This document shows, piece after piece, positions 9,752 through 54,566 of a stretch of DNA of 64,000 nt (positions are counted from its first letter, which is position 1; every line of letters starts with the position of its first letter). The stretch covers positions 186,001-250,000 of the forward strand of contig NZ_VNHY01000001.1 of NCBI RefSeq assembly GCF_008124865.1. Reading direction: 5' to 3'. Position numbers and translations under genes: made by a program. The DNA is from Fodinibius salinus. Lineage in GTDB: Bacteria; Bacteroidota; Rhodothermia; Balneolales; Balneolaceae. A model generated the notes under the pieces. That model did no database searches, was not told the origin of the DNA, and saw only the letters and a list, made by a program, of their open reading frames with translations.

Positions 9752-9855
9752 TTAAAAGTTAAGACCAATTGTTGATGAAAATTTGAGCTTATATTAATTA
9801 ACGATTCCGTTACCACCATGTTTTAATGTGGTGACAATAAGGTGCCAGGAATGTA

Positions 9856-12300: not shown

Positions 12301-12803
12301 CAGCTACTATATTGATAGAGGGTTTTGAAGGCATCATGTTATCCCCTTCCGAATTTTCGGTAGGGCACAAAATGACATAGTAATTTAGCTCTGAAACTAC
12401 TGTTAATAGTAAGTCAAGAATGTAGCAAACATAGTGATTAATAAATAACGGGTAAAATAGGATGACTCAACTGCTTTATTCAGTTATCTCCAAATAAGAA
12501 GTTAAAAGTCACCGTCCTAAAAACGATCTGTCGTTCTGGTGACAGGATAAAAGATTTTGATGATTCTTCGACTCATATTTAAAGATTATAATCAGTACTA
12601 ATTATCCATGCTCGCGCTTTCAATATTTACACTATGAGTCCTTATGATTGGTAGTTTTAGTCTTAACTTAGGAGAAGGGCAAATTTAGCCAAAAAATAGA
12701 AATTAGGAGTCATAATAACATTGGCTAAAATTGATAATGCTTCAAAATTTCGATACTCTCTGCCATGAAATGAAGAAAACTAATCGTAATAAATTTTAGA
12801 TCT
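12301..12803. other. Divergent intergenic region
   Basis: About 500 bp between the penicillin-acylase-like gene (leftward) and the hydroxyacyl-CoA dehydrogenase gene (rightward). No convincing ORF. It holds a nested inverted repeat at 12508-12543 (listed separately) and presumably the promoters of both genes. Confidence 0.5.
12508..12543. repeat. Nested inverted repeat in the divergent promoter region
   Basis: Outer arms GTCACC and GGTGAC enclose a smaller hairpin AACGA-TCTG-TCGTT. No T-tract follows, so it is less like a terminator than like an operator or a small RNA stem. Confidence 0.3.
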
Positions 12804-13655
12804 ATGGATATTAAACAAGTAGCAGTTATCGGCGGCGGCACTATGGGTAATGGAATTTGCCATGTATTTGCCATGAATGGAATTCCTGTAAACCTGGTAG
12901 AAATGGAGCAGGAACTGGCGGATAAAGCGGTGGAGACCATCGACAAGAATTTGGAGCGGATGGTCAACAAAGAAAAGATTGACGCTGAACAGAAAGTACA
13001 GACGCTCGAAAATATCACCACTTTCACCAATACTATTGAAGCTGTCAAAGATGCGGATTTAGTGATCGAAGCCGTGCCCGAGAATTTTGAAATTAAAAAG
13101 CAGGTATTTGCGGACGTGGATAAAGCAGCTCCGGAAGATAGTATCCTGGCAACGAACACTTCTTCGATTTCTATTACGAAACTGGCAGCTACGACATCCC
13201 GTCCCGAGCAGGTTGTTGGCATGCACTTCTTTAATCCAGTGCCTGTTATGAAGTTGGTAGAGGTTGTACGTGGACTTGATACCAGCGACGATGTAGTGGA
13301 AACGGTAGATGAAACGGCGCGGCTGCTCAATAAAAACCCTGTTGAAGTAGCAGACTACCCGGGTTTTGTATCCAACCGTGTACTCATGCCAATGATTAAT
13401 GAGGCTATCTGTTGTGTGCATGAAGGAGTGGCTGATCCCGAAGATATTGATGACGTTATGAAGCTGGGTATGGCACATCCAATGGGCCCGCTTCGGTTGG
13501 CCGATTTTATTGGCTTGGATGTATGTCTCGATATTTTAAATGTATTGCACGAGGGGTTTAAAGATCCTAAATACCGTCCCTCTCCGCTTTTGGTAAAGAT
13601 GGTGGATGCCGGCAAGCTGGGGGATAAGACGGGTGAAGGATTTTATGAGCACTAA
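12804..13655 (+). CDS. hbd: 3-hydroxybutyryl-CoA dehydrogenase (3-hydroxyacyl-CoA dehydrogenase)
   Basis: 283 residues, the usual length of the single-function enzyme. The N-terminal Rossmann motif GGGTMG is at residues 10-15, the NTSSISITKLA stretch at about 118-128, and the catalytic histidine (His141) sits in GMHFFNPVP. The C-terminal domain (about 190-283) contains NRVLMPMINEA and the LDVCLDIL dimer helix. It oxidises (S)-3-hydroxyacyl-CoA with NAD(P) in short-chain fatty acid or polyhydroxybutyrate-type metabolism. It is alone, with a strong terminator 60 bp downstream. Confidence 0.95.
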   Translation: MDIKQVAVIGGGTMGNGICHVFAMNGIPVNLVEMEQELADKAVETIDKNLERMVNKEKIDAEQKVQTLENITTFTNTIEAVKDADLVIEAVPENFEIKKQVFADVDKAAPEDSILATNTSSISITKLAATTSRPEQVVGMHFFNPVPVMKLVEVVRGLDTSDDVVETVDETARLLNKNPVEVADYPGFVSNRVLMPMINEAICCVHEGVADPEDIDDVMKLGMAHPMGPLRLADFIGLDVCLDILNVLHEGFKDPKYRPSPLLVKMVDAGKLGDKTGEGFYEH

Positions 13656-13716
13656 TCCTTTGCTGAAAAGATCTAGGTTCACCATTTAGTAAGGATTTGT
13701 AAATATAGAATGGTAA

Positions 13717-13746
13717 GGGCAAAGGTATTTCCTTTGCCCTTTTTTA
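13717..13746 (+). terminator. Rho-independent terminator after hbd
   Basis: Nine-base-pair stem GGGCAAAGG / CCTTTGCCC, loop TATTT, then a T6 tract. Confidence 0.9.
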
Positions 13747-13766
13747 ATTGTGATACCTTATATTTT

Positions 13767-14090
13767 TCACCAAAATTTCCAGTAGCTGAGGTAGGTCTTC
13801 AGCCGATCAATAAAATATTGACCTCGGAACCACCCATAGATAAAACAGATTGCTAACAAAGCAATAACGGCTATGTTAACTATATCGCTGATAAAGGCCA
13901 CCGTATGGTGTGCTGAAGAAAACATATACAGCCCAAAAATTCCGGGTCCGGGAAACATCCAAAATCCAATAATATTGATAAGGATAAATCCTAAAAAAAG
14001 TGCAAAAAGAGCATGCTTCAGGCGTTCGGTGGCAGATAATACCCGAGAGTGGGTGCGCTCATCTATTTTTAGCTCATTGTTGCTCATCAT
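13767..14090 (-). CDS. Small membrane protein with two transmembrane helices (unknown)
   Basis: 107 residues. A charged N-terminal cytosolic part (about 1-25), two hydrophobic helices (about 27-56, with MFPGPGIFG at the turn, and about 66-90), and a basic, aromatic C-terminus ending RLKTYLSYWKFW. The topology would put both ends in the cytosol. Two methionines open the frame; either can start. I do not recognise a named family. It lies between hbd and the threonine dehydratase, read against both. Confidence 0.65.
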   Translation of the reverse strand: MMSNNELKIDERTHSRVLSATERLKHALFALFLGFILINIIGFWMFPGPGIFGLYMFSSAHHTVAFISDIVNIAVIALLAICFIYGWFRGQYFIDRLKTYLSYWKFW

Positions 14091-14273
14091 TCAGATGGAT
14101 TTTGATGAAATGATTTAAGATAAACTAAAAAGTTTGAGCGGAAATAGCATATCAGTTGAGATAACTTTTCCATTATCAATACAGCTGAAAAATGTTTTAG
14201 ACAGTTTCTATTTCTATTATATTCTTGTTATTTCTTATATCAATGAGATTTTAGGATTAAAATCAGGGTATAT

Positions 14274-15260
14274 ATGGAAAGTATTCAAGTTCCTACGCCA
14301 AGACAGATTGAACAAGCCCGAGAAAGGTTGGGCAACAAGGTTCGCCGAACCCCGGTTTGGGAATGGAAAAGTGAGATATCTAAGGAATTAACCAGCCCGG
14401 ATACCAATCTTTTTTTGAAGCTGGAGCTCTTGCAATATGCCGGCAGTTTCAAGCCGCGCGGTGCGCTGATGAATATGTTGGAGCTCTCTGATGAGCAGCT
14501 TGAAAATGGTGTTACAGCTGTCAGCGCCGGTAATCATGCTATTGCGGTAGCCTATGCGGCAAAATCACTGAATACAACGGCCAAGGTAGTTATGCCGAAG
14601 ACAGCCAACCAATTTCGAGTAAAAAAATGTGAGTATCACGGAGCCAATGTTGAACTGGTGGATGATGTGCATATTGCTTTTGAGCGAGTAAAAGAGATTG
14701 AAGAACAGGAAAACCGGGCATTTATCCATCCGTTTGAAGGTGAACAAACCGCGATTGGTACCGCTACTGTAGGACTTGAGCTGATGCAGGATACTCGGCA
14801 CTTGGATGCCGTTATTGTTCCTATTGGCGGCGGGGGCCTTTGTGCTGGTATAGCAACGGCAGTAAAGCAAATAAATCCCGATTGTAAAGTATATGGCGTG
14901 GAGCCTACCGGGGCCGACAGCATGAGCAAGAGCAGAGCAGCAGGCGAACCGGTTGAGATTGAAAAGGTTGATACTATTGCTGATAGCCTGGGCGCTCCGC
15001 ACGCTGCTCCGTATAGTTTTGGCCTTTGCCAGCGGTTTGTGGATGACGTGGTAACGATTACCGATCTGCAGATGGCACAGATGATGAAAGTGATGTTCGA
15101 AGAGCTGAAGCTGGCTGTTGAACCGGCGGGTGCTTCGGCAATGGCAGGAGCTGTAGGTCCGTTAGCGGATCGTATTGAAGGAAAATCGGTGGGTATTATT
15201 GTATGCGGTACCAACATTGATACCAAAAGTTTTCACACTATTTTAGATGAGACAAAGTGA
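14274..15260 (+). CDS. Threonine/serine dehydratase (PLP fold type II), short catabolic form
   Basis: 328 residues. The PLP-binding lysine is Lys60 in AGSFKPRGA, the phosphate-binding glycine loop is GGGGLCAG (about residues 184-191), and SAGNHA at about 85-90 is the substrate-binding loop. There is no C-terminal ACT-like regulatory domain, so this is the catabolic TdcB/serine racemase-like size, not biosynthetic IlvA (about 510). It deaminates threonine to 2-oxobutyrate or serine to pyruvate. It is followed after 67 bp by a threonine aldolase gene on the same strand, making a small threonine-breakdown cluster. Confidence 0.9.
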   Translation: MESIQVPTPRQIEQARERLGNKVRRTPVWEWKSEISKELTSPDTNLFLKLELLQYAGSFKPRGALMNMLELSDEQLENGVTAVSAGNHAIAVAYAAKSLNTTAKVVMPKTANQFRVKKCEYHGANVELVDDVHIAFERVKEIEEQENRAFIHPFEGEQTAIGTATVGLELMQDTRHLDAVIVPIGGGGLCAGIATAVKQINPDCKVYGVEPTGADSMSKSRAAGEPVEIEKVDTIADSLGAPHAAPYSFGLCQRFVDDVVTITDLQMAQMMKVMFEELKLAVEPAGASAMAGAVGPLADRIEGKSVGIIVCGTNIDTKSFHTILDETK

Positions 15261-15267
15261 TTACAAA

Positions 15268-15312
15268 CTATAATGAAATGTCATCCTGTCTCGATTAATC
15301 GGGATCTGCATT
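15268..15312. repeat. Short palindromic sequence between two threonine-degrading genes
   Basis: The 67-bp gap contains TCTCGATTAATCGGGA, an almost perfect 16-bp palindrome, next to TGTCAT, a start shared with the inverted-repeat element at 1632-1714. It may be a decayed relative or a processing stem in the joint transcript. Confidence 0.3.
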
Positions 15313-15327
15313 CGTAAACTAATTATC

Positions 15328-16347
15328 ATGATTGATCTGCGAAGTGATACGGTAACTAAGCCCACCCCTCAAATGCGTCAGGCTATGGTTGAGGCCAAAG
15401 TAGGGGACGATGTGTTTGGTGAGGATCCTACAGTAAATGCGTTGGAAAAGAAGATAGCTCGTAAGTTTGGATTCGAAGCAGGCTTGTTTGTGCCCAGCGG
15501 TACCATGGCTAATCAGCTGAGTATCAATACGCTAACCGAACAGGGAGAGGAAGTGCTCATCGAAGAAACGGGCCATATTGCTAATTATGAATCCACAGCA
15601 GCGGCTCATCTTTCATCCGTTCATCTAAAGACGCTGCCGGGTCAACAGGGTAAATTATCGGCAGAATTACTTACAGATACTGTCCGCGGCAGTCGCGACT
15701 GGGAACCACAAACTTCTGTAATTGCACTGGAAAATACTACAAACAAGGGGGGCGGATGTTGCTACAGTGAAGAGGAGCTTTCTGCTATTCGTGCATTTTC
15801 CGATAATCATAACTTGGCTGTTCATTTAGATGGAGCGCGGATCTGGAATGCGATGACGGCTACTGGTACCGAGCCTAAGTTCTACAGTTCCATTGCTGAT
15901 ACGCTATCCGTTTGTTTTAGCAAGGGGTTGGGTGCACCCGTTGGATCCATGGTGTTGTCATCGAAACAGCAAATTGCCGAAATGCGGCGTATGCGTAAAA
16001 TGTGGGGTGGAGGCATGCGACAAGTCGGGATACTGGCTGCAGCTGCCGACTATGCTGTGGAGAATCACTATCAGCTGCTGAAAGAAGATCACCGCCGGGC
16101 GAAGGAACTGGCAGAAGTTATTGAGCAGTGTAGCGGACTTGCAATTAAACGGGATCTGGTAGAGACGAATATCCTTATTTTTGATGTTTTGAATATGTCA
16201 GCGCCTACGGCCGTGGAAAAATTAGAAGAGCAGGGCGTTCGTCTGGTGCCATTTGGACCAAATACGCTGCGAGCAACTTTTTATTTTCATATCACAGATG
16301 AAGATTTGCAACAGGCAAAGCAAATATTTAGAAGCCTTTACGATTAG
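15328..16347 (+). CDS. ltaE: Low-specificity L-threonine aldolase
   Basis: 339 residues, the normal length. The opening MIDLRSDTVTKPTPQMR is the hallmark of the family, GDDVFGEDP follows, and the PLP lysine is Lys199 in CFSKGLGAPVGS. It is a fold-type I PLP enzyme that splits threonine or allo-threonine to glycine and acetaldehyde. Its neighbour upstream deaminates threonine, so the pair offers two exits for the same amino acid. Confidence 0.95.
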   Translation: MIDLRSDTVTKPTPQMRQAMVEAKVGDDVFGEDPTVNALEKKIARKFGFEAGLFVPSGTMANQLSINTLTEQGEEVLIEETGHIANYESTAAAHLSSVHLKTLPGQQGKLSAELLTDTVRGSRDWEPQTSVIALENTTNKGGGCCYSEEELSAIRAFSDNHNLAVHLDGARIWNAMTATGTEPKFYSSIADTLSVCFSKGLGAPVGSMVLSSKQQIAEMRRMRKMWGGGMRQVGILAAAADYAVENHYQLLKEDHRRAKELAEVIEQCSGLAIKRDLVETNILIFDVLNMSAPTAVEKLEEQGVRLVPFGPNTLRATFYFHITDEDLQQAKQIFRSLYD

Positions 16348-16349
16348 TT

Positions 16350-16799
16350 TTATTGCTTCTTTTTATCACTGGTGTAGTTTTGCCAAAGCGGATTCCCCCG
16401 GTCAGGGTAAGACAATTCGGAAGACTGTGATGGTCCGAACTGGAGATTAATAAACGAGTTTGCGACCCACATCAGAGATGACCAGTTTTCTCCAAACTCT
16501 TCTTTCATTTGTTCACGATATGCTTTCATAGCCCTGTCCAGGTGTTTTTGACCCATAAAAGGACGTTCATAATGGTATGGGTTCGGTTCTGGTACATCGT
16601 ACGTTCCCATTTCAGACATCGCGCCCAGTGAGACAGAACGGTCTTGCGGAGTGTCTAAATTAAGCGAACGGTTGGCTTTTGGGTTACGCTCGATATCCCT
16701 CTTTGTGGTATCTTGTTCTTGTGACAGTGAACAAAGGGGCATGACAAGGAAGGTTACAAAAAAGAAAAACCTGAAATAAATTTTGTCGTTCAGTGGCAC
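16350..16799 (-). CDS. Secreted or periplasmic protein of unknown function, 149 aa
   Basis: A signal peptide spans about residues 1-26, with a Phe-rich hydrophobic core (FRFFFFVTFLVMPL) and a likely cut after CSLSQ. The mature part is polar, with a disordered Asn/Arg/Asp-rich start, then a helix around HLDRAMKAYREQMKEEFG and a final aromatic segment. No known domain is seen. Its stop lies two bases from that of ltaE, tail to tail. Its coding strand matches argD, which lies upstream on the same strand with a 49-bp gap, so it may sit at the end of that transcript. Confidence 0.6.
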   Translation of the reverse strand: MPLNDKIYFRFFFFVTFLVMPLCSLSQEQDTTKRDIERNPKANRSLNLDTPQDRSVSLGAMSEMGTYDVPEPNPYHYERPFMGQKHLDRAMKAYREQMKEEFGENWSSLMWVANSFINLQFGPSQSSELSYPDRGNPLWQNYTSDKKKQ

Positions 16800-16848
16800 G
16801 TTACGCAGTTTATTTTGGAGTGGGATGCATACTATAACAAAAATGCGA

Positions 16849-18042
16849 TCATTTTGTTTTATCTATCCCGATATTTTTTCTGATTGCCTGTATTAGCACG
16901 TCAGCTAATCGAGTCAACTCTTCGTTGTTAATGACAAGCGGCGGCACCAGGCGAATTACGTTGCCTTGTGTACAGTTAGAAAGCACTCCCATGGCCATCA
17001 TATCCTCAACCACCTTGCGGCCGTTAAAGTCCAGTTCAACACCGAGCATCAATCCTCGTCCGCGAATGTCTGTGATTTCGGGAATAGTTGAACTCATTTC
17101 GCGAAGTTTATTTTCCAAAAACTGTCCCTTTTCATCAGCTTGTTGGATTAAATCTTCATCCTTTATCGTATTCAAGGCGGCCACAGAAGCGGCACAAGCT
17201 AGCGGATTGCCACCGTACGTGCTTCCGTGGTCGCCGTAACTCATGGTTTTAGCTACTTTATCGGTACACACCATGGCTCCAATAGGGAACCCGCCGCCCA
17301 TAGCTTTAGCGATGGCAATAATATCAGGCTGCACGTTATAGTGTTCAAATCCGAACATTGCTCCCGTTCGTCCAATGCCAGTTTGTACCTCATCAACGAT
17401 AAACAGAGCATCATGAGTATCACAGAGGCTTTGAATCCTTTCTATAAAATCTTGTGAAGCTACATGGAGTCCGCCGGATCCCTGTATGGTTTCAATAACG
17501 ACGCCAAGCGTTTGATCATTAAATGTGGCTTCGAGTGCTTCTGTGTCGTTCATTGGCACTTCATTAAATCCTTTCATCAGTGGGTCGTAGCCTTTGGAAT
17601 ATTTTTTCATCCCCATGGATATGGTTCCCATCGTTCGTCCGTGAAAGGCATTACTGACGGTTATAAGTGAAGGCTGCTTGTCATAAGCCTGCCCATATTT
17701 CCGAGCCGCTTTTACAGCTGCCTCCATGGCTTCGCCACCACTATTGCAGATGAATCCTTTGTCTAATCCTGAGATTTCAGCAAGTAATTCTAAAAGCTGT
17801 GCCTGTGGTTTGCTGTAATAAAAGTTGGAGATATGCATCAGCTGCTCTACTTGTTGCTGAACAGCTTCTACAACATTTGGATGGCAGTGTCCAAGGCTGT
17901 TAACTGCTATACCTGCAAGAGCATCCAAGTATTTATTGCCGTTTTCATCCCAGACATGAGTTCCTTGGCCTTTGGTGATGGTAATGGGAAATCGATTGTA
18001 AACAGGGAGATGGTATTGTTCGGTAAGCTGCTGAAAATTCAT
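16849..18042 (-). CDS. argD: Acetylornithine/succinyldiaminopimelate aminotransferase-type class III transaminase
   Basis: 397 residues. The PLP lysine is Lys246 in AIAKAMGGGFPIGA, the PLP-binding aspartate is Asp217 in IVDEVQTGIGRTG, and NSGGEAMEAAVKAAR and NAFHGRTMGT are the usual phosphate and substrate parts. The length and the HVWDENGNKYLDALAGIAVNSLGH opening fit ArgD rather than the longer GABA or DAPA transaminases. No other arginine gene is nearby, so a role as ornithine or acyl-ornithine aminotransferase is equally possible. Confidence 0.87.
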   Translation of the reverse strand: MNFQQLTEQYHLPVYNRFPITITKGQGTHVWDENGNKYLDALAGIAVNSLGHCHPNVVEAVQQQVEQLMHISNFYYSKPQAQLLELLAEISGLDKGFICNSGGEAMEAAVKAARKYGQAYDKQPSLITVSNAFHGRTMGTISMGMKKYSKGYDPLMKGFNEVPMNDTEALEATFNDQTLGVVIETIQGSGGLHVASQDFIERIQSLCDTHDALFIVDEVQTGIGRTGAMFGFEHYNVQPDIIAIAKAMGGGFPIGAMVCTDKVAKTMSYGDHGSTYGGNPLACAASVAALNTIKDEDLIQQADEKGQFLENKLREMSSTIPEITDIRGRGLMLGVELDFNGRKVVEDMMAMGVLSNCTQGNVIRLVPPLVINNEELTRLADVLIQAIRKNIGIDKTK

Positions 18043-42871: not shown

Positions 42872-45800
42872 TTGTTTGTCCGCTGGTTACATAACGCTTG
42901 GAAGTATTTTTGGCGTGTCGTCATGGCTTTGCTGTTAGTTATTTTAATTGTCGGCGGATGCCTGATCGGAGTTCTTCAATTGGATGTGACTCAAAACTAT
43001 CTGGTTGATAATATTGAACAGCGAGTAGAACAGAACTTCCATGCCAAATTGGAAATTGGTGATGTCGGCGGTTTTCTCCCTTTTAATATTTCGATGCAAG
43101 ATGTTGTTTTGGTAAACACATATTCAGCATCTGAAGATACTGTGGCTTCGGTTCAGAATTTGACCAGTCAAATTGCTGTTTGGGGATTACTGCAAAATGA
43201 ACTGGCTATCACTGGTTTTAGACTTGATAAACCTCGTTTATGGATACGTTCTGATGAGGAAGGACGCCGTCGCTTGTTAATTCCTAAAAAGGATAACTTG
43301 GCCGAAGATTCAAAATCAGCAGAAGAGGGTTGGTTTAGTAGTGTAGAGATTGTAGCGCCGGCATTGGAAATTACAGACGGTACGCTACATTTAACTGCCG
43401 CAACAAAAAAGAACAAAATTGGGAATTTACCTCAATCCTTTGCACTTACAGATATTGAAGCTAGTTTTTTCCTGGAGTGGGGTGGTCCGGAACGATATTT
43501 TGATGTTAGTTCTTTTTCGGCCAACACAAAAAATTTAGGAATAGATAAATTTTCGTTATCCGGCCAGTTGTACAGTGATCAAAATGCATTAGAGTTCAAT
43601 TCTTTTTATGTGAATCTTGCCGATTCACGATTTATCCTGAATGGACAGGTGCAGGGGGTGGATATAACACAACCTGATCTGACAGGCCAGTTAGCGGAAG
43701 CCCGCTATAATATAAGTGTGGAGTCTGAACGTTTTGAGCTAAATGATTTGCGGGATATTATTCCGAACACACCTTCTTGGGATCCACAGTTTTCATTACA
43801 AGTTGAGGCTGATGGTACTACTGATTCACTTGCTGTAACGCAAGCTTCCATAGGTACGGGAGAAAGTTTTATTCGATTTAAAGGATTTTTTAAACACCTG
43901 AAGCAGCAAAATTTTTCTTATGATGTAACACTTGATTCAGTGAACCTTCGCAAGCCGGATGTTTATAAATTTGCTGATACGCTTTCAACTTCGCAATATC
44001 GTGCGCTTCAAGATCTGTCAGCCAGCGGTGAGGCGTCTGGTTCTGCCAATTCGGTGGATGTTGACTTGCAGTTACAAAATCCCATGGGGAGGTTGACCGT
44101 TAATGGTCAAAGCCAGTTACGCGCACCATATAATTATTCGGGTACAATAAGCGCTAAAAAGCTCAATATTGCTCCGCTCATAACCACTTGGGATACAACT
44201 TCTTTGAATATTAATAGTCGTTTTGAAGGGCAAGGTATTTCATTGGAAGAAGCATCCGGCAATTTTGAAGTGTCTTTGGCAGACAGTTATATCAATAATA
44301 TTGGTATTGACACATTATGGACGACAGCTGAATTGTCAGACGGATTGTTTTCACACCATTATGAGTATTCCAGTGGTGATGAGCATTTATCTGGATCGGG
44401 AACCGTTGACGTTACAGCAGATAAATCGTTATCGTTAGAGGGGGATGGGCAGAATTTTAATATTAAAAAATACCTTGAATCTGCTGCCGTAGTATCAACG
44501 AGTCTCAATTTTGATTACAACGTTGAGTTCCAAAATTTTAAGCTTGACGATATTTATGGACGGGTAAATGTCGATATTCATCCATCTATCGTTGGAGAGG
44601 ATTCTGTCAAGTCTCATCAATTTTATGCCGATCTAAACGCCCCCGGCAATGACAATCGTTCATTGCGGCTTACAAGTTCCGTATTTGATATGAACATCAG
44701 CGGTGATATCCTTCCATCTGATATTGTTGAACAGTATCAGTTTTGGATGCCTTATTTACGCAGTCAATTTAGGACGGAGTTGTTGCTGGATACCGAACCA
44801 GCAGCGCAGCCATCTGCTTCTGCTTTGCCTGATGATCCAGTGGTTGTTGAAGGTAATATCACAGCAAAAAATTTGAGCCTTATTAAAAAATATATTCCCG
44901 ACTTTCCGTCAATATACTCGAATGCAGAGCTGACCTTTAGTACGAATACCAGTGCCCAGCGATTTTTACTTTCAGCAAATATGCAGGCCGATTCTCTAAA
45001 TTTTAATAACTGGACGTTTACCGACAGCCAAACACAGTTTACGGCTAGTGCTCGCAGCGATCAATCACTCAAAGAATTTACAACTGTTGATTGGGAAACC
45101 TCCGTTGGGACGCTCGATACCCCCAGGCTCACAGCCGATTCACTTGTATTTGATTTTGCCCTAAATCAGGATTCAGTATACTACAGCCAAACAACTGGAA
45201 GCATTGCGAAAAATACGCAGTTCCAAATGGATGTAGAGGCAGCACTTACTGATACGGCTATTTCAGTTACAGTTCCTAATTTTTATTTGGGAAATCAGGA
45301 GTATGCATGGCAGCAAGTTCAAACCCCCTCTTTTACTTACAATCAAAAGGGACAAATTCAATTTAACGATTTTCGATTTCAGAACAGGGACGAATATCTG
45401 CGATTGCAGGGAACATTTAGCAAAAATCGGAGCGATTCGCTTACCTATATCCTTGAGGATATTCACCTGAATCGTATTTCTGATCTTATTAAGGGCCAAA
45501 TTAATTTCAACGGCGTGCTTAACGGTACATTTGTTACCCGTTCTCTTACGCGTCAACCGACCGTGCAGGGCAAATTTGATATCAACAGTTTTAAGCTTAA
45601 TAACCGGCTAATTGGTGATGTCGATTTTAATAGCGAATATAATCCTGATAAAAAACGGTTTGATACGCAAATTGATATCCAGACGGACAGTACTAAGTAT
45701 CAGGATTATCTTGCTTCTAATGACGGAATTGGTCAGGATATACAGCTGGATGGCTATGTATTACAGCCGGATGCAAATACTGAAAGTGACTCACTCTATT

Positions 45801-47602
45801 ATTTTGATGCCAGCTTCAAGCAAATTGATATGTGGGTGCTTCCGCTTTTCTTGGATAATATATTCCAAAATATGGAGGGTCAAGCTACGGGCGACGGTTA
45901 TATCACCGGTAATTTTGATGATATAGATTTCCACGCCAATTTTGAGACAAAAAATGTATTTGCCAAACCGCAATTTGTGAATACTAATTATTTCTTAACC
46001 GGTCCGGTAATATTAGATAGGGATGAGGGAGTAACGCTGGATTCATTAAATGTGATCGATACCAAGGGGGGTAGTGGTACGGTATGGGGCAATATTGATT
46101 TTAATGATTTTAGTCCTATCACATATATTGATCTTACGATGGATATGAACCGGCTGCAGTTCTTGAACAATAAGAGAGATCCCGATGTACCCTTTTTCGG
46201 GAATGCATCCGGTTCCGGAATTTTACGGCTAACTGGTTCAAATCAGGATATGTATATGCGTACCCCTGGTACCTTGCAATTAAGCAGTAGTTCTGAAATG
46301 TCAATTCCTTTGCTCGAAGAAACAGAACTTCAGGAGACCGGAAAGTTTATACAATTTGTGGAAACCTTTGAGCCCGAATCCACGTCACAAACTGAGGAAG
46401 CGGAAGAGCAAGCTAAAGAAGCGACTGTAGATGAAGAAGCACTGCGAGAAGAAATTTCAGACATGACGTTTACCGAGCGTTTTGACTTGGACCTACAGTT
46501 CGAGGCTAACGAAAATGTTACGGTGAATTTACTTTTTGATCCCGTTACAGGAGAAGTACTTACGGCGGGAGGAACTGGTCAGCTCAATATTACTATGCAG
46601 GATCAAGACCTGCAGATGTTTGGTCGATATACCATTAACAATGGGAATTACCAGTTTGTGACCGGAGAAATTATTAGTCGCAATTTTCAACTGCAGCCCG
46701 GCGGAACTATTATCTGGGAAGGCCCCGCCGATAATGCCCGGCTTGATATCAGTGCTGTGTATAACGCACGGCCTAATATTGCCACGCTGACATCCCAAAC
46801 AGCTTTTGATGCCGAAAATGAGAATACTAGTCAACAGGTACCAATCGAGCTTGTGCTGGAAATTACTGGGACTCTTAACAGCGTAGAAAATAACTTTTTC
46901 TTTCGGCTGCCGTCTTCCATTGATTTGTCATCAAACTCTACGCTTCAATATACGATCAACCAGATTAATCGTGACGACCAACAAAAGCTGTTACAGGCTA
47001 CGAGTATTCTGTTCTCGGGCCAGTTTATACCATCTCGGGGGGCAAGTAATTCTACGGCTTCGCTGAGTCAGAACTTAACACGGGGTTCTACTGTTATAAA
47101 TCCGTTGCTTTCTAACCAAGTGATAAGTCCGTTATTATCTAATCAAATAAATGCCTTACTTAACAGTGATGTAAGTGAACTTGAAGTAGACTTTAATTTG
47201 AATGCCAATAATGAAGTGGATCTTGGAATTGCATTGCGATTGTATAATGACCGTCTGATTTTACGGCGCGAAGGTCAATTAACCGGTCAAGGTTCCGAAA
47301 GTTCTTTTGGAGATCGCATTGGCGATCTTAATGCCACTTATCGCATCAATCGTGGTTTATCACTTACAGCTTTTCACCGGCAGGATCAGGTATTAAACAG
47401 TTATTCTGCTAGTGGATCCCAAGCCGGCGATGTGACGCCCAGCGTAGATGGTATTGGTATTGAAACGCAAGTCCAATATAATACTTGGGGTGAGCTGATG
47501 CGTAAGATTAGGAATATTTTTGGAAATAATGAGAACGAAAATAAGAATAAGAAATCCGGAGAGCGTAATGAGACTGCTCAAAAACCGGAAGAAGGAAATT
47601 AA
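42872..47602 (+). CDS. tamB: TamB-like translocation and assembly module protein
   Basis: 1576 residues, started at a TTG at 42872 because it gives the expected basic, one-helix N-terminus (RWLHNAWKYFWRVV, then MALLLVILIVGG); the next methionine would lose the basic part. The long middle is repetitive beta-sheet, the AsmA/TamB taco-shaped groove, and the C-terminal DUF490 domain (from about 1150) contains the typical LQFEANENVTVNLLFDP and GTGQLNITMQDQDLQMFGRYTI. It bridges inner and outer membranes and helps lipid or outer membrane protein insertion. A barrel protein gene sits two genes downstream in the same run. The terminal 25 residues are Asn/Lys/Glu-rich. Confidence 0.88.
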   Translation: MFVRWLHNAWKYFWRVVMALLLVILIVGGCLIGVLQLDVTQNYLVDNIEQRVEQNFHAKLEIGDVGGFLPFNISMQDVVLVNTYSASEDTVASVQNLTSQIAVWGLLQNELAITGFRLDKPRLWIRSDEEGRRRLLIPKKDNLAEDSKSAEEGWFSSVEIVAPALEITDGTLHLTAATKKNKIGNLPQSFALTDIEASFFLEWGGPERYFDVSSFSANTKNLGIDKFSLSGQLYSDQNALEFNSFYVNLADSRFILNGQVQGVDITQPDLTGQLAEARYNISVESERFELNDLRDIIPNTPSWDPQFSLQVEADGTTDSLAVTQASIGTGESFIRFKGFFKHLKQQNFSYDVTLDSVNLRKPDVYKFADTLSTSQYRALQDLSASGEASGSANSVDVDLQLQNPMGRLTVNGQSQLRAPYNYSGTISAKKLNIAPLITTWDTTSLNINSRFEGQGISLEEASGNFEVSLADSYINNIGIDTLWTTAELSDGLFSHHYEYSSGDEHLSGSGTVDVTADKSLSLEGDGQNFNIKKYLESAAVVSTSLNFDYNVEFQNFKLDDIYGRVNVDIHPSIVGEDSVKSHQFYADLNAPGNDNRSLRLTSSVFDMNISGDILPSDIVEQYQFWMPYLRSQFRTELLLDTEPAAQPSASALPDDPVVVEGNITAKNLSLIKKYIPDFPSIYSNAELTFSTNTSAQRFLLSANMQADSLNFNNWTFTDSQTQFTASARSDQSLKEFTTVDWETSVGTLDTPRLTADSLVFDFALNQDSVYYSQTTGSIAKNTQFQMDVEAALTDTAISVTVPNFYLGNQEYAWQQVQTPSFTYNQKGQIQFNDFRFQNRDEYLRLQGTFSKNRSDSLTYILEDIHLNRISDLIKGQINFNGVLNGTFVTRSLTRQPTVQGKFDINSFKLNNRLIGDVDFNSEYNPDKKRFDTQIDIQTDSTKYQDYLASNDGIGQDIQLDGYVLQPDANTESDSLYYFDASFKQIDMWVLPLFLDNIFQNMEGQATGDGYITGNFDDIDFHANFETKNVFAKPQFVNTNYFLTGPVILDRDEGVTLDSLNVIDTKGGSGTVWGNIDFNDFSPITYIDLTMDMNRLQFLNNKRDPDVPFFGNASGSGILRLTGSNQDMYMRTPGTLQLSSSSEMSIPLLEETELQETGKFIQFVETFEPESTSQTEEAEEQAKEATVDEEALREEISDMTFTERFDLDLQFEANENVTVNLLFDPVTGEVLTAGGTGQLNITMQDQDLQMFGRYTINNGNYQFVTGEIISRNFQLQPGGTIIWEGPADNARLDISAVYNARPNIATLTSQTAFDAENENTSQQVPIELVLEITGTLNSVENNFFFRLPSSIDLSSNSTLQYTINQINRDDQQKLLQATSILFSGQFIPSRGASNSTASLSQNLTRGSTVINPLLSNQVISPLLSNQINALLNSDVSELEVDFNLNANNEVDLGIALRLYNDRLILRREGQLTGQGSESSFGDRIGDLNATYRINRGLSLTAFHRQDQVLNSYSASGSQAGDVTPSVDGIGIETQVQYNTWGELMRKIRNIFGNNENENKNKKSGERNETAQKPEEGN

Positions 47603-47629: not shown

Positions 47630-49786
47630 ATGAATAGAAGTAAAAAAGAAACCTTTGAGGATATTATCCTCGATATTTTACAAAAGAATCCCAATGCACA
47701 ACTGCCGTTTAATGTGTTGCAGAATATTCTGCAAGTCAATGGCAAACAAGATAATAATCGACTTAAGAGTGTCATTAATAGCCTTTTTGATCGTAATCTT
47801 ATCGTAAAACGAAAAGGTGGAGCTATACAACTGGCCGACAATAAAAGTAAGCGCGGACAGCGTACCGTAACCGGTAAAATTGACATAAGTCGGCGCGGGA
47901 CAGGCTATCTTATTACTGATGCTTTTGAGGAAGACGTACAAGTGTCTTCCAAGCATTTGGGAACGGCTCTGCAGGATGACAAGGTTAGCGTTGAATTGTT
48001 TGATAAGAACAATGGTCGCCGCAAGGGTAAAGTAGTTGAAGTTTTAGAACGCGGTAAAAGCATTTTTGTGGGCACTCTAAACAAGCAGGGCAAACAAAAT
48101 TATTTGATTGAGCCTGATGAAAAATCAGCACATACTAACTTTTTTATACTTCCGGATAATATTGGGAAAGCACAGCCTGGCGATAAAGTGGTTTTTGAGC
48201 TGGTTGACTGGGTACATCCCCGATCGCTGCCTGAAGCTTCCATCGTTGAAATTCTCGGTAAGGAGGGGTCTAATGATGCCAATGTGCTTTCGATTTTAGC
48301 TGAGAATGATATTAAACCCGGATTCCCGGACCAGGTAAAAGTCTTTGCCGATAATATTGATAGCAGTATTCCCAAACAGGAAATTGCCCGCCGACGTGAT
48401 ATTCGCGACGAGACGGTCTTTACCATTGACCCGGATACGGCCAAAGATTTTGATGATGCTTTGAGTATTAAGGTATTGGATAATGGTAACTTTTATTTGG
48501 GTGTGCACATTGCGGATGTTACGCACTATATGCCCAGAAATAATGTACTGGATGAGGAGGCTTATAAGCGTGGAACCAGTGTATACTTGGTTGACCGTGT
48601 AATTCCTATGCTTCCAGAAAAGCTCAGTAATGGTGTGTGCAGTTTAAGTCCGCATGAAGACAAGCTGGCCTACAGCTGTTTTATGGAAATATCGCCTAAT
48701 GGTAAACTAGTTGATCATTCTATTGAAGAAACCGTCATCCACTCCGATCATCGCTTTACTTATGAAGAGGCTCAAGAAGTGATCGACGGAGCAGACAGTG
48801 ACTACGCTGCAAAAATACAAACTGCAGCTAAATTAGCACAGACGCTTTTGGATAAACGATTTGAGGAAGGAAGTATCAACTTTGAAACCAAAGAACCAAA
48901 GTTTATTCTGGATGATGATGGCACTCCCCTTGATGTAAAGCTAAAAGAACGCCTGTTTGCCCATCGCCTCATTGAAGAATGCATGCTCATGGCCAACAAA
49001 ACGGTAGCAAAACATGTCGATGGACTGCGTAAAAAATCGAATAAACAAGATAATGAAGATCTGTTTCCGTTTTTATATCGTATTCATGACCAGCCGGATC
49101 TTGATAAGTTGAAGAATATCGAAGAAAACGTGAAACCTATCGGTATTAATTTTCATATCGACAGCCCAACGGTAAGTTCGAAAGCTATTAATGTACTTCT
49201 CGACCAAATTAAAGACACTCCGCTTGAGTTAACGGTCAATGATCTGATGCTTCGGGCTATGTCGAAGGCCGAATACAGCCCCGATAATATTGGGCACTTT
49301 GGCTTGGGTTTTGAAGATTATGCACACTTTACCAGTCCTATTCGTCGCTATCCGGATGTGCTTGTACATCGGTTGCTTAAAGCTTACGGTGCTGGCAAAC
49401 CCGGGTATTCCTACAACGAACTTAAAACGTTGGGAGCACATTGCAGCGAGCAGGAACGATCGGCTATTGATGCTGAACGAGACTCTGTAAAGCTGAAACA
49501 AGTAGAGTTTTTAAGTCAGCATCTTGGTGAAGATTTTGATGGCGTAATAAGTGGAGTAATGGGTAGCGGTATTTTTGTTGATTTGGAAGATATCCACTGC
49601 GAAGGAATGGTCCGGGTTAGTGATCTTAACGATGATTATTATGAATATAACGAAAGCCAGCACTGCCTGATTGGACGAAATCACGGCAAAAAATATCAGC
49701 TGGGGAAAGAAATCCGCGTAAAAGTTGTTAACACTGACATAAAAGCACGGCAGATAGATCTGAAATTAGTCGATGACGGCGAATAA
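47630..49786 (+). CDS. rnr: Ribonuclease R
   Basis: 718 residues. Domain order: winged helix (about 10-70), cold-shock domains CSD1 and CSD2 (about 75-240), the catalytic RNB domain with TIDPDTAKDFDDALSI (about 267-282, its aspartates bind magnesium), and a C-terminal S1 domain (about 630-715, VISGVMGSGIFVDL). It degrades structured RNA 3' to 5' and helps clear stalled messages. Follows tamB by 27 bp and precedes the barrel protein by 27 bp. Confidence 0.96.
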   Translation: MNRSKKETFEDIILDILQKNPNAQLPFNVLQNILQVNGKQDNNRLKSVINSLFDRNLIVKRKGGAIQLADNKSKRGQRTVTGKIDISRRGTGYLITDAFEEDVQVSSKHLGTALQDDKVSVELFDKNNGRRKGKVVEVLERGKSIFVGTLNKQGKQNYLIEPDEKSAHTNFFILPDNIGKAQPGDKVVFELVDWVHPRSLPEASIVEILGKEGSNDANVLSILAENDIKPGFPDQVKVFADNIDSSIPKQEIARRRDIRDETVFTIDPDTAKDFDDALSIKVLDNGNFYLGVHIADVTHYMPRNNVLDEEAYKRGTSVYLVDRVIPMLPEKLSNGVCSLSPHEDKLAYSCFMEISPNGKLVDHSIEETVIHSDHRFTYEEAQEVIDGADSDYAAKIQTAAKLAQTLLDKRFEEGSINFETKEPKFILDDDGTPLDVKLKERLFAHRLIEECMLMANKTVAKHVDGLRKKSNKQDNEDLFPFLYRIHDQPDLDKLKNIEENVKPIGINFHIDSPTVSSKAINVLLDQIKDTPLELTVNDLMLRAMSKAEYSPDNIGHFGLGFEDYAHFTSPIRRYPDVLVHRLLKAYGAGKPGYSYNELKTLGAHCSEQERSAIDAERDSVKLKQVEFLSQHLGEDFDGVISGVMGSGIFVDLEDIHCEGMVRVSDLNDDYYEYNESQHCLIGRNHGKKYQLGKEIRVKVVNTDIKARQIDLKLVDDGE

Positions 49787-49813: not shown

Positions 49814-52800
49814 ATGAAAATCTTTCGATACCTACGGCGATTGTTGGTACTGCTTTTTGTGATTGTCTTTGTTGGGGGACTGTTGCAAGAATCTCATGCC
49901 CAGTACTTTTCATTTGGCAAAAATAGGGTTCAATACAAGAATTTTGATTGGAAATATATACAGTCCGAGCATTTTGATATATATTATTACCAGTCGAAAA
50001 ATTATGACTTGGCTAATTTTGCAGCCTACAATTTAGAAGCCTCGTTGCAACAGCTTAATGAGGATTTCGACCATCAGATTGCTGATCGTATTCAGGTAAT
50101 CCTTTACGATTCTCACAACGACTTCTCGCAGACAAACGTGGTGCCACTACCGGTTGATGCAGAGGGAATTGGTGGTGTTACTGATCCTTACAAGAATCGA
50201 ATTACCATGCCGTTCGACGGTAATTATACCAAATTTAGAAGTACGTTACAGCACGAGCTTGAACACGCTGTCATCAACGATATGTTTTATGGGGGCACCG
50301 TACAATCTCGGTTAAGCGGTAATGCACTGCAGATTCCGAATTGGTTTAATGAAGGCATGGCCGAGTATACTTCGCTGGGGTGGGATACGGAGACTGATAT
50401 GTATATGCGGGATGCTATTATTAATGATTACATTCCTCCCATACCTCGGTTAGGGGGATTTTTTGCTTACAGGGGGGGAGAGGCCGTATGGAATTATATT
50501 GCCGAAGAATATGGACGCCAAAAGATTACGGAAATTATGCAGACCCTGAAAAGTACGCGTAGTTTAGAAGTTGCTTTTCGGCGGTCGCTGGGTCTAAGTA
50601 TCGAAGAGCTATCCAAACGTTGGAAAGATTATTACCGGGAGCGATATTTGCCGGAGGTGGCTAATCGCGAAGATGTAACTAATTTTGGTGAACAATTAAC
50701 TAATCAGGGTAAGAACGCAACTTATAACACTAGTCCCGCTATTTCACCGCAGGGTGATAAAATTGCGATGATTACCAATGCACGCGGTTATTTTGATGTG
50801 GTGGTCATTAGCGCGGTAACCGGGAAAAAAATAAAGACGCTAATAAAGGGAGAAGATAACGTCAATTTTGAAGAGCTGAACATTTTAAATCCTAATTTAA
50901 CGTGGTCGCCGGATGGACAAAAAATAGCGCTCTCTACAAAGTCGAAGGGAGAAGATAAGCTGGCCATTGTAGATTATGAAACTGGCGATGTACGTCTTAT
51001 TTCATTTCCTAAATTGGATGCTATTGGTTCTGTAGCTTGGTCTCCAAACGGCAATAAAATTGCCTTTGACGGTAATATTGGACCCTACCAGGATATTTAT
51101 GTTTATAATCTTAAAAATGAAGAGTTTATAAATGTTACGAATGATGTGATCTCTGATTATACACCTGCTTGGGGCAGTGACTCAAAAACTATTTATTTTG
51201 TCTCATCGCGTGGAGATGAAACCAGATTAAATGCTGTTAAAAATACATCAAGGTTGTTACTGGACGATGATTTATACAGTTCAGATATTTATTCAGTGAC
51301 TATCGGAGATTCCAAGGCAACACAGCTTACGAAAACGCCCCTATGGAATGAAACGCAGCCTATTACCTCGCCTAATGGTTCGCTGTTTTATATTTCTGAT
51401 GAAAATGGTATTCCTAATGTATATCAAATGGATCTGGAAGATCGCACAACAGTGCCACTTACCAACCTACAGACTGGAGTGCGTCAAATGTCAATTAGTG
51501 CAGATGCAAGCCGGCTGGCAGTTAATTCCATCAACAAGGGGGCATTAGATATTTTTATGATAAATGCACCTCTTAGTCGAAAGAAAGATGGTCCCCTGAA
51601 ACCCAATCACTGGGCCCAGCGGCGTGCTAAGGAGACGGAGGCCGAACGGGTACCTGCAACCGGCTACGTTCGTGATATGTTAACGAACAATGCACTGGCC
51701 ACAACAAGTTTAACAGATGCCGTAGCTGATAAAGTGGATCCTGAGCCAAAAGAAGCGGCAGTCGATACGTTGGCAGGAGATGCTAAGTCGGCAAAAAGTG
51801 ATACTACGGTAGCCCAAGCACAAACAGATACCACAGCTAAAGAGGGTTCGGATAATATTGATTTTCGAAACTATGTATTTGACTCCTCAGTGTCAGAAGA
51901 CTCTACTTTCGAGAAAAAATATTTAGATGCTTCAAAGTTTGAGGTTAAAAAGAATAAAACAGAAGACGGCCGCTATATTCCCAATGAATATCGCCTAAAG
52001 TTTAGCACTGACCTTGTATATGCAGGAGGTAATTTTTCAACGATGTATGGGGCTTATGGAATTACTCAGATACAATTCAGTGATCTTTTGGGTAACCATC
52101 AGATCTCTTTTGGGACCAATCTCAATTTAGATTTGCGCAACAGCACCTATTTTTTGCAGTACGGTTACCTTAAACAACGAACTGACTGGATTTTTAACTT
52201 CTTCCATCAATCCAGAAACTTCCAGGATTTTAGTGGCAATTTATTTCGGTTCCGTACCTTTGGCGGTGGGATAAATATGCGGTATCCCATTGACAAATTC
52301 CGTCGGGTTGATGTAAGTCTCTCAGCTATTGGTCTTGCACAGGACTTTTCAGTTGCGTATGAAGATACGGCAAGCAATCAAAAAGCTACTTTTTTATACC
52401 CTCAGGTAATTTATACCAGTGACAAAACACTCGGAGGATTTTTGGCACCAAGAGGAGGGCATCGGTATTCGGTAAGTGTCAGTGGTAGCCCGCCCATTAG
52501 TAGTAGCACATCCCAATTTGTTTCCGCACTGGGCGATTTCCGAAAATATTTTCACTTAGGTAGCAGATATTCGTTTGCCGTTAGGGGATCTGGCGGAGCT
52601 TCTTTTGGCCGTGACTCACAGACTTTCTTTTTGGGGGGGACACTGGGATGGATTAATCAGCAGTATTCGGGTCGTGGTATTCCGTTAGATCGTCTTGGAG
52701 ACACCTTCTTTACCCAGCCGGCACTGCCACTTCGCGGTCATCCGTATAATGCTACTTACGGAAATAAGTTTTCATTAGTCAACGCAGAATTCCGGTTTCC

Positions 52801-53191
52801 GTTGTTTGCAGCTATTTTGCCCGGTCCAATACCGGTACTCCCGTTATATAACTTAACTGGTGTAGCATTTTTGGATGCCGGGATGGCTTGGGGACAGAAT
52901 GTAAAATTCGAGTTTCGGAACCAAAACAACCCGCAAAATACACAAGAAATTATTTTAAATGATAAAGAACTGGATTTTGCTGTAGCCCAGCAAACACGTC
53001 AGACGGTTGTTACACCGGGTGGGCAGACTTCGGTACCTGTCACTGAGGGAGATATCTTGATGGGCGCCGGATTTGGCCTGCGTACTGTCCTTTTTGGATT
53101 TCCCTTGCGTTATGATGTGGGGTGGCCCTATTTTCGCGATGGTTTTGATAGCGATCCTATCCACTACATATCGATTGGGATAGATTTTTAG
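49814..53191 (+). CDS. Metallopeptidase-like + TolB beta-propeller + outer-membrane beta-barrel protein
   Basis: 1125 residues with a signal peptide (about 1-29, ESHAQ). First domain: a gluzincin-like peptidase with HELEH at 147-151 and the downstream FNEGMAEY at 178-185, whose Glu184 is the likely third zinc ligand (Glu180 is the alternative). Second: a TolB-like propeller (about 300-600) with repeated ...WSPDGQKIA, AWSPNGNKIAF and WGSDSKTIYF blades. A charged low-complexity linker rich in Ala, Asp and Thr spans about 620-690. Last: a beta-barrel of the surface-antigen/BamA C-terminal type (about 720-1125) ending ISIGIDF, with terminal Phe, the usual BAM recognition end. It is probably an outer-membrane protein with periplasmic domains. 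Function unknown; assembly help or quality control of outer-membrane proteins is my inference from its neighbours. Confidence 0.86.
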   Translation: MKIFRYLRRLLVLLFVIVFVGGLLQESHAQYFSFGKNRVQYKNFDWKYIQSEHFDIYYYQSKNYDLANFAAYNLEASLQQLNEDFDHQIADRIQVILYDSHNDFSQTNVVPLPVDAEGIGGVTDPYKNRITMPFDGNYTKFRSTLQHELEHAVINDMFYGGTVQSRLSGNALQIPNWFNEGMAEYTSLGWDTETDMYMRDAIINDYIPPIPRLGGFFAYRGGEAVWNYIAEEYGRQKITEIMQTLKSTRSLEVAFRRSLGLSIEELSKRWKDYYRERYLPEVANREDVTNFGEQLTNQGKNATYNTSPAISPQGDKIAMITNARGYFDVVVISAVTGKKIKTLIKGEDNVNFEELNILNPNLTWSPDGQKIALSTKSKGEDKLAIVDYETGDVRLISFPKLDAIGSVAWSPNGNKIAFDGNIGPYQDIYVYNLKNEEFINVTNDVISDYTPAWGSDSKTIYFVSSRGDETRLNAVKNTSRLLLDDDLYSSDIYSVTIGDSKATQLTKTPLWNETQPITSPNGSLFYISDENGIPNVYQMDLEDRTTVPLTNLQTGVRQMSISADASRLAVNSINKGALDIFMINAPLSRKKDGPLKPNHWAQRRAKETEAERVPATGYVRDMLTNNALATTSLTDAVADKVDPEPKEAAVDTLAGDAKSAKSDTTVAQAQTDTTAKEGSDNIDFRNYVFDSSVSEDSTFEKKYLDASKFEVKKNKTEDGRYIPNEYRLKFSTDLVYAGGNFSTMYGAYGITQIQFSDLLGNHQISFGTNLNLDLRNSTYFLQYGYLKQRTDWIFNFFHQSRNFQDFSGNLFRFRTFGGGINMRYPIDKFRRVDVSLSAIGLAQDFSVAYEDTASNQKATFLYPQVIYTSDKTLGGFLAPRGGHRYSVSVSGSPPISSSTSQFVSALGDFRKYFHLGSRYSFAVRGSGGASFGRDSQTFFLGGTLGWINQQYSGRGIPLDRLGDTFFTQPALPLRGHPYNATYGNKFSLVNAEFRFPLFAAILPGPIPVLPLYNLTGVAFLDAGMAWGQNVKFEFRNQNNPQNTQEIILNDKELDFAVAQQTRQTVVTPGGQTSVPVTEGDILMGAGFGLRTVLFGFPLRYDVGWPYFRDGFDSDPIHYISIGIDF

Positions 53192-53255: not shown

Positions 53256-54566
53256 TTACTGTTTCATAGTGCGATCTACTTTTAACAGCCGGTCAAAATT
53301 TTTATCAGGATCTTTATAATAGATAAAGGTAAAATATTCTTGGGCTGAAGATACAAAGAGTTGGTCGAGTGCCAGGTCGTTTATATTGTTATTGCTGACT
53401 GTTACGTACTTATAAGCATATTGCCCTTCCTTGATGATTGCATTTCCTTTCCAGAGCTTTCTTTCGCTATCATATTCCATCTGATGGAAGTCATTTACAA
53501 TCCAGTTGTTAAAATCACCGATCACAAAGATATTGGTATTGGGAGAGACTGATGAGTCTGTTGTCAGCGAAAACTGCACCCGGGCATAGTTTCCGCTCCG
53601 GCCCTTGCTTGGCATTCCCAGATTAGAAAGAGGAAAGGGGCTAGGCGTTACCCCAAACCGTTGGATATCACGGCGTAAAACAACTTTAGGTGGCGTTAGG
53701 CCTGGAAAATACTCTACAATTTGCTGTCCATCTGCTTCAAAATTTTGCAGGTTTAATGTTTTAAATTCATAATTACCCACAAAGCTATTGTTTATTTGCA
53801 ACCGGCCGTTTAGCTTATTTTGAGTAATGGTATCAAGAAAATCAGCTTTGCGCATTCGCCCCCAAAACTGGTTTTGAGCAAAAGACATCGACAAATCAAA
53901 CTGTGGGTATTCAACGAATTTGGGATATTGGTACTTACTGGAAGGCTGATCAAGAGGTCGCCCGTCATTCCTTTTTGCAAATAATCGGTCAATTTGAGTA
54001 CTTATTTGCCCTTCGTTTTCGGTAACAAAAAAAGGCAGCTTAAAAAGCAATGTCCCATCGTTGTCGTCATAAACTTCAATTAAGTAATTTCCACTTACAG
54101 CAGGACGTAACTGATCATTTGGAAACGAGTATTCGACATGCCGATAAGATGGATTGTTAGTAAAACTGGCCTTTGCATTTTGGATAAAGGCATAAGAAAA
54201 ACTGTCGAGATAGGTAGAGGCAGTAATAGAACTTTGTTTCCAATTTTGAGTACGATGAGAAATTTCAATTCGAAATTGGCGGCTTTGTGTACTCAGATAA
54301 TCAAATGACAATACAAGTTTTTGTGAAGTCTTGAGGCTAATAATAGGGGCTTTAGCAGGGGCATTTTGGGGATGTACGTGAATACTCTGGATATCCTTGG
54401 GCGGAACTTGCTGCCCTGGGAGTGCAAATCCTGATGTTAAAAGAGGTCGATCAGAGTGAGTGAGATTAGCATTTCTATTTTGGTTAGAGGCTGCACAACC
54501 AATCCCCAAATACAATAAAAATGTGACAAAAAGGAGATTACTGTAGAAAGTTGCCTTGAAAAACAA
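53256..54566 (-). CDS. DUF5103 lipoprotein (type IX secretion plug family) with a C-terminal glycogen-binding-like domain
   Basis: 436 residues. The start is a TTG at 54566 inside the end of dapF (29-base overlap); it gives a good lipoprotein signal (LLFVTFLLYLGIGC, Cys24) and no ATG is available. The N-terminal two thirds match DUF5103, whose members include the plug protein of the type IX secretion translocon. The last part (about 330-415) reads FVIGDFNNW...LWKGNAIIKEGQYAYKYV, an early-set AMPK/CBM48-like beta-sandwich. No other T9SS gene lies in the window, so the role in T9SS is inference from the family alone. Last gene of the ccmB-holB-dapF run. Confidence 0.82.
   Translation of the reverse strand: MFFKATFYSNLLFVTFLLYLGIGCAASNQNRNANLTHSDRPLLTSGFALPGQQVPPKDIQSIHVHPQNAPAKAPIISLKTSQKLVLSFDYLSTQSRQFRIEISHRTQNWKQSSITASTYLDSFSYAFIQNAKASFTNNPSYRHVEYSFPNDQLRPAVSGNYLIEVYDDNDGTLLFKLPFFVTENEGQISTQIDRLFAKRNDGRPLDQPSSKYQYPKFVEYPQFDLSMSFAQNQFWGRMRKADFLDTITQNKLNGRLQINNSFVGNYEFKTLNLQNFEADGQQIVEYFPGLTPPKVVLRRDIQRFGVTPSPFPLSNLGMPSKGRSGNYARVQFSLTTDSSVSPNTNIFVIGDFNNWIVNDFHQMEYDSERKLWKGNAIIKEGQYAYKYVTVSNNNINDLALDQLFVSSAQEYFTFIYYKDPDKNFDRLLKVDRTMKQ

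Follow-up and report, generated by a model that had tools for sequence, protein, structure and literature searches.

A zinc peptidase, a TolB-like propeller and an Omp85-type barrel in a single chain of Fodinibius salinus

The stretch of DNA analysed here, called the window, comprises 64,000 nucleotides of Fodinibius salinus (contig NZ_VNHY01000001.1, positions 186,001 to 250,000). One of its genes, at window positions 49814-53191 on the plus strand, is a single uninterrupted open reading frame (ORF) of 1125 residues with an ATG start and no internal stop, and its product joins a zinc peptidase of predicted gluzincin fold, a TolB-like propeller and a BamA-type barrel of the Omp85 superfamily. 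The catalytic residues are conserved in the clade of the window protein and absent from one large and one small clade of its relatives, and a TamB-like gene lies two genes upstream. We read the protein as a periplasm-facing Omp85 of outer-membrane biogenesis which probably works with TamB and whose protease trims or clears clients, with a rough probability of one half.

Domain architecture

The features of the gene are as follows.

49814-53191, plus strand: whole gene, peptidase-propeller-Omp85 protein of 1125 residues (ORF, Pfam, fold model, genome profile search)
49814-49900, plus strand: Sec-type signal peptide, about residues 1-29 (read by eye from the sequence)
49910-49951, plus strand: conserved mature N-terminal segment, residues 33-46, SFGKNRVQYKNFDW (alignment identity; model confidence low here)
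49952-50668, plus strand: zinc peptidase domain of gluzincin fold, residues 47-285 (PF13485 and predicted fold)
50252-50266, plus strand: HELEH, residues 147-151, two putative zinc ligands and putative catalytic Glu148 (alignment)
50348-50368, plus strand: NEGMAEY, residues 179-185, with putative third ligand E180 and invariant E184 (alignment)
50468-50470, plus strand: Tyr219, candidate catalytic tyrosine 71 residues past Glu148 (conservation)
50669-51589, plus strand: TolB-like propeller, residues 286-592 (Pfam, NCBIfam, structure match)
51611-51979, plus strand: charged linker, predicted disordered, residues 600-722 (low model confidence; variable among relatives)
51995-53188, plus strand: Omp85/BamA-type barrel, residues 728-1125 (model, structure match, PF01103 genome search)
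52730-52738, plus strand: LRG motif, residues 973-975, Omp85 loop-6 signature (conservation and literature)
52868-52882, plus strand: FLDAG motif, residues 1019-1023, which we take to be the Omp85 FxDxG signature (alignment)

A fusion of peptidase, propeller and barrel had been proposed from the sequence alone, and it is borne out by the intact ORF, the Pfam matches and the predicted folds of all three domains. When the window protein was scanned alone, Pfam matched Peptidase_MA_2 (PF13485) at residues 77-273 above its cut-off (E 4e-12) and PD40 repeats in the propeller region, and did not match Omp85 (PF01103). In a genome search PF01103 scored above cut-off at the position of the gene (E 3e-10), and at E <= 0.01 it matched 4 of the 23 aligned family members. 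The NCBIfam match to the TolB propeller was partial (E 3e-32) and far below the equivalog cut-off; neither the window protein nor the five relatives scanned reached an NCBIfam cut-off. Pfam found no POTRA domain before the barrel (E <= 1), where the propeller and the disordered linker stand, and no TolB_N domain in the window protein. A Protein Data Bank (PDB) search with the whole protein returned propeller proteins only (TolB and, weakly, Atu1656 and acyl-peptide hydrolase) and nothing for the peptidase or the barrel.

No cysteine is seen by eye at the signal junction, so the protein is not a lipoprotein by this reading, and its C-terminal end resembles that of outer-membrane proteins (G1122..F1125). 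The N-terminal domains of BamA-type barrels lie in the periplasm. From the Sec-type signal, the BamA-type barrel and this C-terminal end, and by analogy with the family, the barrel would reside in the outer membrane, with both N-terminal domains held in the periplasm on the flexible linker.

Predicted structure

A full-length AlphaFold2 model was built from a 23-row alignment (mean predicted local distance difference test, pLDDT, 68.3; predicted template modelling score 0.64) and compared with known structures by VIA-align. Residues 289-590 matched TolB with Z 28.5 and root-mean-square deviation 2.3 over 246 aligned residues; the top TolB row is itself a model, and crystal structures follow with Z 28.4 and below. 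The barrel expected by the sequence-only reading is predicted as well: residues 731-1125 matched BamA with Z 24.1 and root-mean-square deviation 3.9 over 312 aligned residues, and a hand count of DSSP elements gave 16 strands and an extra hairpin. The LRG motif lies in the loop joining strands 11 and 12, presumably the place of L6 in BamA. The charged linker that had been noted is present, between propeller and barrel, and is predicted disordered, with pLDDT below 50 at residues 607-709.

The peptidase domain modelled alone reached a mean pLDDT of 77.8. Among the 50 structure rows listed it matched M9 collagenases, M30 lugdulysin and M1 aminopeptidases with Z 11.8-15.8 over 195-231 residues, the M9 collagenases being nearest in fold. 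Foldseek gave E 7e-5 at best for the same model, and identity to gluzincin structures was only 10-16% in the rows listed. A profile of the domain found no credible match among PDB sequences, the best hit being an armadillo protein (E 0.037).

Conservation and loss of the zinc site

The site was analysed in an alignment of 165 rows, including four duplicates, of which 164 are readable there. H147, E148, H151 and E180 are all present in 109 of the 165 rows. Three rows, from family f51, retain both glutamates and neither histidine, and 52 of the 164 readable rows retain none or one of the four residues. The unreadable row is the C-terminal piece of a draft Ignavibacteria protein (locus L004), in which a frameshift close to where the peptidase domain ends, possibly a sequencing error, breaks the ORF into pieces at 7821-8606 and 8431-11037; the separate N-terminal piece carries the site.

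A tree of 119 rows was constructed with the site columns removed (quick LG+G4 run, Shimodaira-Hasegawa-like approximate likelihood ratio test, SH-aLRT, as sole support, midpoint root, make-up warnings for 35 rows). The state of the site changes twice on it, in a 30-row clade which includes Pontibacter, other Cytophagales and unnamed families and in the 3-row f51 clade, each with SH-aLRT 100. A quick midpoint-rooted tree cannot by itself tell gain from loss. The two changes are best read as losses, because intact sites occur in Cloacimonadota, in WOR-3 and in the paralogue clade, and because six residues are involved.

In the intact clade H147, E148, H151, E180, E184 and Y219 are each present in 67 of 67 distinct rows, and in the paralogues each is present in 17 of 17. 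The corresponding counts in the site-lost clade (n=30) are 1, 1, 0, 4, 2 and 0. Mean identity in the intact clade is 52% for the peptidase, 41% for the propeller and 43% for the barrel, which makes the peptidase the best-conserved large domain. The corresponding values for the site-lost clade are 35%, 29% and 37%, so that the peptidase does not lead there. From the invariance of the six residues and the lead of the peptidase in the intact clade, the site is under selection for its chemistry where it is retained. Y219 is likely the catalytic tyrosine, as it is invariant and its spacing resembles that of lugdulysin, for which an E242Q Y315F mutant is named in a PDB title (73 residues between Glu and Tyr, against 71 for E148-Y219).

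The HELEH at 147-151, the FNEGMAEY with E180 and E184 and the numbering of Glu148, all given beforehand by the sequence-only reading, agree with the alignment. Its statement that the metal site is intact holds for the window protein and its own clade, and is unsupported as a general statement in view of the 52 rows and the three f51 rows above. Conservation of the zinc ligands among orthologues had been set in advance as one of two points on which that reading should stand or fall; they are invariant in the intact clade, and the site is lost in the 30-row and 3-row clades.

The segment of residues 33-46 shows a mean identity of 63% within the intact clade, 62% within the site-lost clade and 57% between them. 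Its retention in both suggests an interface independent of catalysis. R974 of the LRG motif, a signature described in PMC12611786, is present in all 67 intact, 30 site-lost, 3 f51 and 17 paralogue rows, and G975 in 66 of 67, 30 of 30, 3 of 3 and 17 of 17. Since the chain is kept in the site-lost clades, the family is not defined by proteolysis, and its scaffold matters beyond it. That a whole clade retains the chain without the site, and that segment 33-46 is conserved in either case, is also what would be expected if the protein were an assembly or tethering factor throughout, with a minor or vestigial peptidase even where the ligands remain. The 67 of 67 invariance of six catalytic-type residues and the rank of the peptidase among the large domains of the intact clade make that explanation unlikely.

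The three f51 loci (L102, L106, L110) have R in place of H147 and L or R in place of H151; E184 and the two glutamates of the site are unchanged, and Y219 is lost. The paralogues with an intact site (17 tree rows: L115-L120, L122, L123, L125-L127, L129, L131, L167, L169-L171) mostly carry HELVHAFQY or HELVHSFQY, and three genomes of family f32 (G162, G037, G064) hold an intact paralogue and a site-lost copy together.

Gene neighbourhood and linkage to TamB

Two genes precede the barrel-protein gene on its strand, and both intergenic gaps, between the TamB-like gene and RNase R and between RNase R and the barrel-protein gene, are 27 bases.

42872-47602, plus strand: TamB-like protein of the AsmA superfamily, 1576 residues, two genes upstream (PF04357 matches of relatives, shared profile)
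47630-49786, plus strand: RNase R, 718 residues, directly upstream (RNB domain, E 4e-111)

Among 14 aligned members of the TamB-like family, 7 match PF04357 (best E 7e-38) and 8 match DUF748, and a profile built from all 14 also detects this genome's canonical TamB. The order TamB-like gene, RNase R, barrel-protein gene, which the sequence-only reading had not mentioned, is kept in 12 families. Of the 63 intact-site loci, 24 have it on one strand, representing 12 family codes (that of the window included) and three named Fodinibius loci; the figure of 24 is a lower bound, as some loci end at contig ends. The order was found in 0 of 52 site-lost, 0 of 3 f51 and 0 of 17 paralogue loci. As 10 of 13 aligned TamB-like members are just 14-17% identical to that of the window, the gene order is old. 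In five genomes (G014, G240, G263, G267, G298) the sole TamB match is the one in this cluster. Because of the gene order, TamB is the best candidate partner.

Several observations weigh against a partnership with TamB and the reading built on it. The TamB-like protein of the window has no Pfam match when scanned alone, and PF04357 gives none at its position in the genome search. Gene order is indirect evidence, and it is missing from 39 of the 63 intact-site loci and from every one of the 52 site-lost loci. The five genomes named above belong to 26 with a single TamB match (E <= 1e-5), and in the other 21 the match lies elsewhere or the barrel protein is missing. The linkage could reflect an old housekeeping cluster, since RNase R sits between the two genes. 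The genome also has 6 Omp85 matches in all and two TamB-type genes with an Omp85 gene nearby. One of these is a separate pair of an Omp85 (650 residues) and a TamB (1481 residues) at G000:C4:203587-208995 (L179), so TamB already has an Omp85 partner here. Confidence in the full-length model is moderate.

The neighbourhood also bears on the idea of a translocon that processes its cargo, in which the barrel would export or insert clients, the peptidase would cut a propeptide or targeting segment in passage, and the site-lost lineage would use a separate protease or have uncut clients. An Omp85 barrel with a conserved enzyme site attached to it fits such a role, and protein translocation is described for other Omp85 proteins in PMC4104836. 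Among the four nearest neighbours on either flank, the only genes that recur in many families are the TamB-like gene and RNase R, with no client-like gene among them, and we regard this role as rather unlikely. The pore suggested by the sequence-only reading gained no evidence beyond the type of barrel.

A promoter and terminator scan of the operon gave counts close to those of shuffled sequences (29 against a mean of 27.1, and 12 against a mean of 8.9 with standard deviation 2.8). The next gene, convergent at 53256-54566 on the minus strand, has a product with a type 9 secretion plug domain (PF17116, E 9e-30); counting the window, 7 of 135 compared loci hold a member of its family. Loci of the site-lost lineage usually carry a gene of metallo-beta-lactamase fold one or two positions upstream, on the opposite strand (41 loci; e.g. 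L007 6193-6858). One member each was scanned of this and the other neighbours of that lineage, namely FAD oxidoreductase, CDP-alcohol transferase, C25 peptidase, serine beta-lactamase family and YicC, and they gave no clear functional story. In family f47, the locus L076 carries downstream (10663-17001) a protein of at least 2113 residues with about 15 SdrD_B repeats which runs to the locus end; similar long ORFs are present in L077, L079 and L034.

Distribution across genomes

Of 392 genomes sampled evenly across the phylum, 264 matched the window protein (E <= 1e-20), which is more than chance. The family profile matched 68 of 71 hand-picked genomes at 1e-10. Five of these matches (G010, G020, G029, G053, G057) are short weak propeller hits whose best E ranges from 2e-17 to 7e-11. 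For the remaining 63 matched genomes the best match has E <= 3e-94 and falls on the peptidase-propeller-Omp85 protein or its paralogue. Named relatives (34 loci from 49 candidate stretches) include Fodinibius, the Ignavibacteria draft, Cloacimonadota, WOR-3, Pontibacter and Spirosomataceae.

TolB is the best structural match of the propeller, and TolB_N was not found in the genome of the window (G000), so that the propeller might stand in for TolB and connect the outer membrane to peptidoglycan through a Tol-Pal-like link. TolB_N was found in just 3 of 65 sampled genomes; two of them (G135, G341) have the barrel protein and one (G010) does not. As TolB_N is nearly always missing, with or without the barrel protein, its absence does not track the gene and the phyletic pattern does not discriminate; this substitution is considered very unlikely. 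A fold closest to collagenases, which digest external protein, would suit a nutrient-digesting enzyme that the barrel brings to the cell surface, the role originally put forward for PlpD. The wide spread in the phylum, the envelope-gene neighbour, a mature N-terminus still conserved when the enzyme is dead, and a BamA-type barrel, with N-terminal domains in the periplasm, all speak against it, and it is highly improbable.

Proposed function

In the preferred reading, the TolB-like propeller and the zinc peptidase replace the POTRA domains of an Omp85-superfamily protein. Propeller and conserved mature N-terminus would form a docking platform for partners or clients; one such partner is probably the TamB-like bridge protein, whose gene lies two genes upstream. 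Clients docked or stalled there may be trimmed or degraded by the intact peptidase, like BepA at the β-barrel assembly machinery (BAM) in E. coli but within one chain. The clearance of failed outer-membrane proteins put forward by the sequence-only reading is a fair hypothesis. Computation gives the folds, the conservation of the catalytic set, its two changes and the gene order; outer-membrane location, periplasmic orientation, proteolysis, client clearance and partnership with TamB are inferred from these. A tentative extension, possible at best, is that the protein represents a third kind of Omp85 partner for TamB: the bridge would end at a periplasmic propeller with a built-in protease that clears the exit, and the Cytophagales-containing lineage would later have turned the protease into a pure scaffold.

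Comparison with known systems

The gluzincins M9 (collagenase), M30 (lugdulysin) and M1 share the predicted fold (Z 12-16) and the HExxH with a downstream Glu. M9 is nearest by fold, yet no credible sequence match joins the peptidase-domain profile to solved structures. BepA of E. coli (M48) is described as a zinc metallopeptidase of the periplasm that either assists LptD or degrades it at the BAM stage, which resembles the role proposed for the window protein. It stands alone as a soluble protein with TPR repeats, whereas peptidase, propeller and barrel form one chain here.

BamP and BamI of the Bacteroidota BAM are accessory parts at an outer-membrane Omp85, and BamI has a six-bladed propeller (PMC12611786, PMC12578637). 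Unlike the fused propeller here, BamI is described as a separate extracellular subunit (PMC12578637). BamP of F. johnsoniae was considered as a counterpart and dropped; the words peptidase and propeller are absent from the main text of PMC12611786. The subunits described in these two 2025 papers are other ones.

TamA and TamL are Omp85 proteins that partner TamB (PMC4494059, PMC12045153). Their barrel gene lies near a tamB-type gene, as does that of the window, and they serve outer-membrane biogenesis, the role proposed here. Each has three POTRA domains, and TamL is also lipid-anchored; the window protein shows neither feature, and RNase R separates the two genes here. The words propeller and WD40 are absent from the passages on TamB partners in both papers. 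Which barrel TamB works with in lineages that lack a TamA-TamB operon is now within reach of a simple test.

In the open-access literature only the 2014 description of WD40-Omp85 was found, and nothing on a peptidase-propeller-Omp85 chain or its linkage to TamB. Within that literature the peptidase domain, its two losses and the TamB linkage are new, and a protein matched in roughly two thirds of the genomes sampled from the phylum has no assigned function in the papers found. Live and dead enzyme forms of one scaffold make the family a natural experiment. Heinz and Lithgow (2014, PMC4104836) describe WD40-Omp85 as a non-POTRA, uncharacterised propeller-Omp85 fusion that brings to mind BamA fused to BamB. 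The term peptidase is absent from the paper's main text, and the 'Metallo' Omp85 group defined there carries PF00149, another domain. The TolB-like propeller N-terminal to a C-terminal Omp85 barrel is common to both, and by domain architecture the window protein is best read as a member of this known WD40-Omp85 subfamily.

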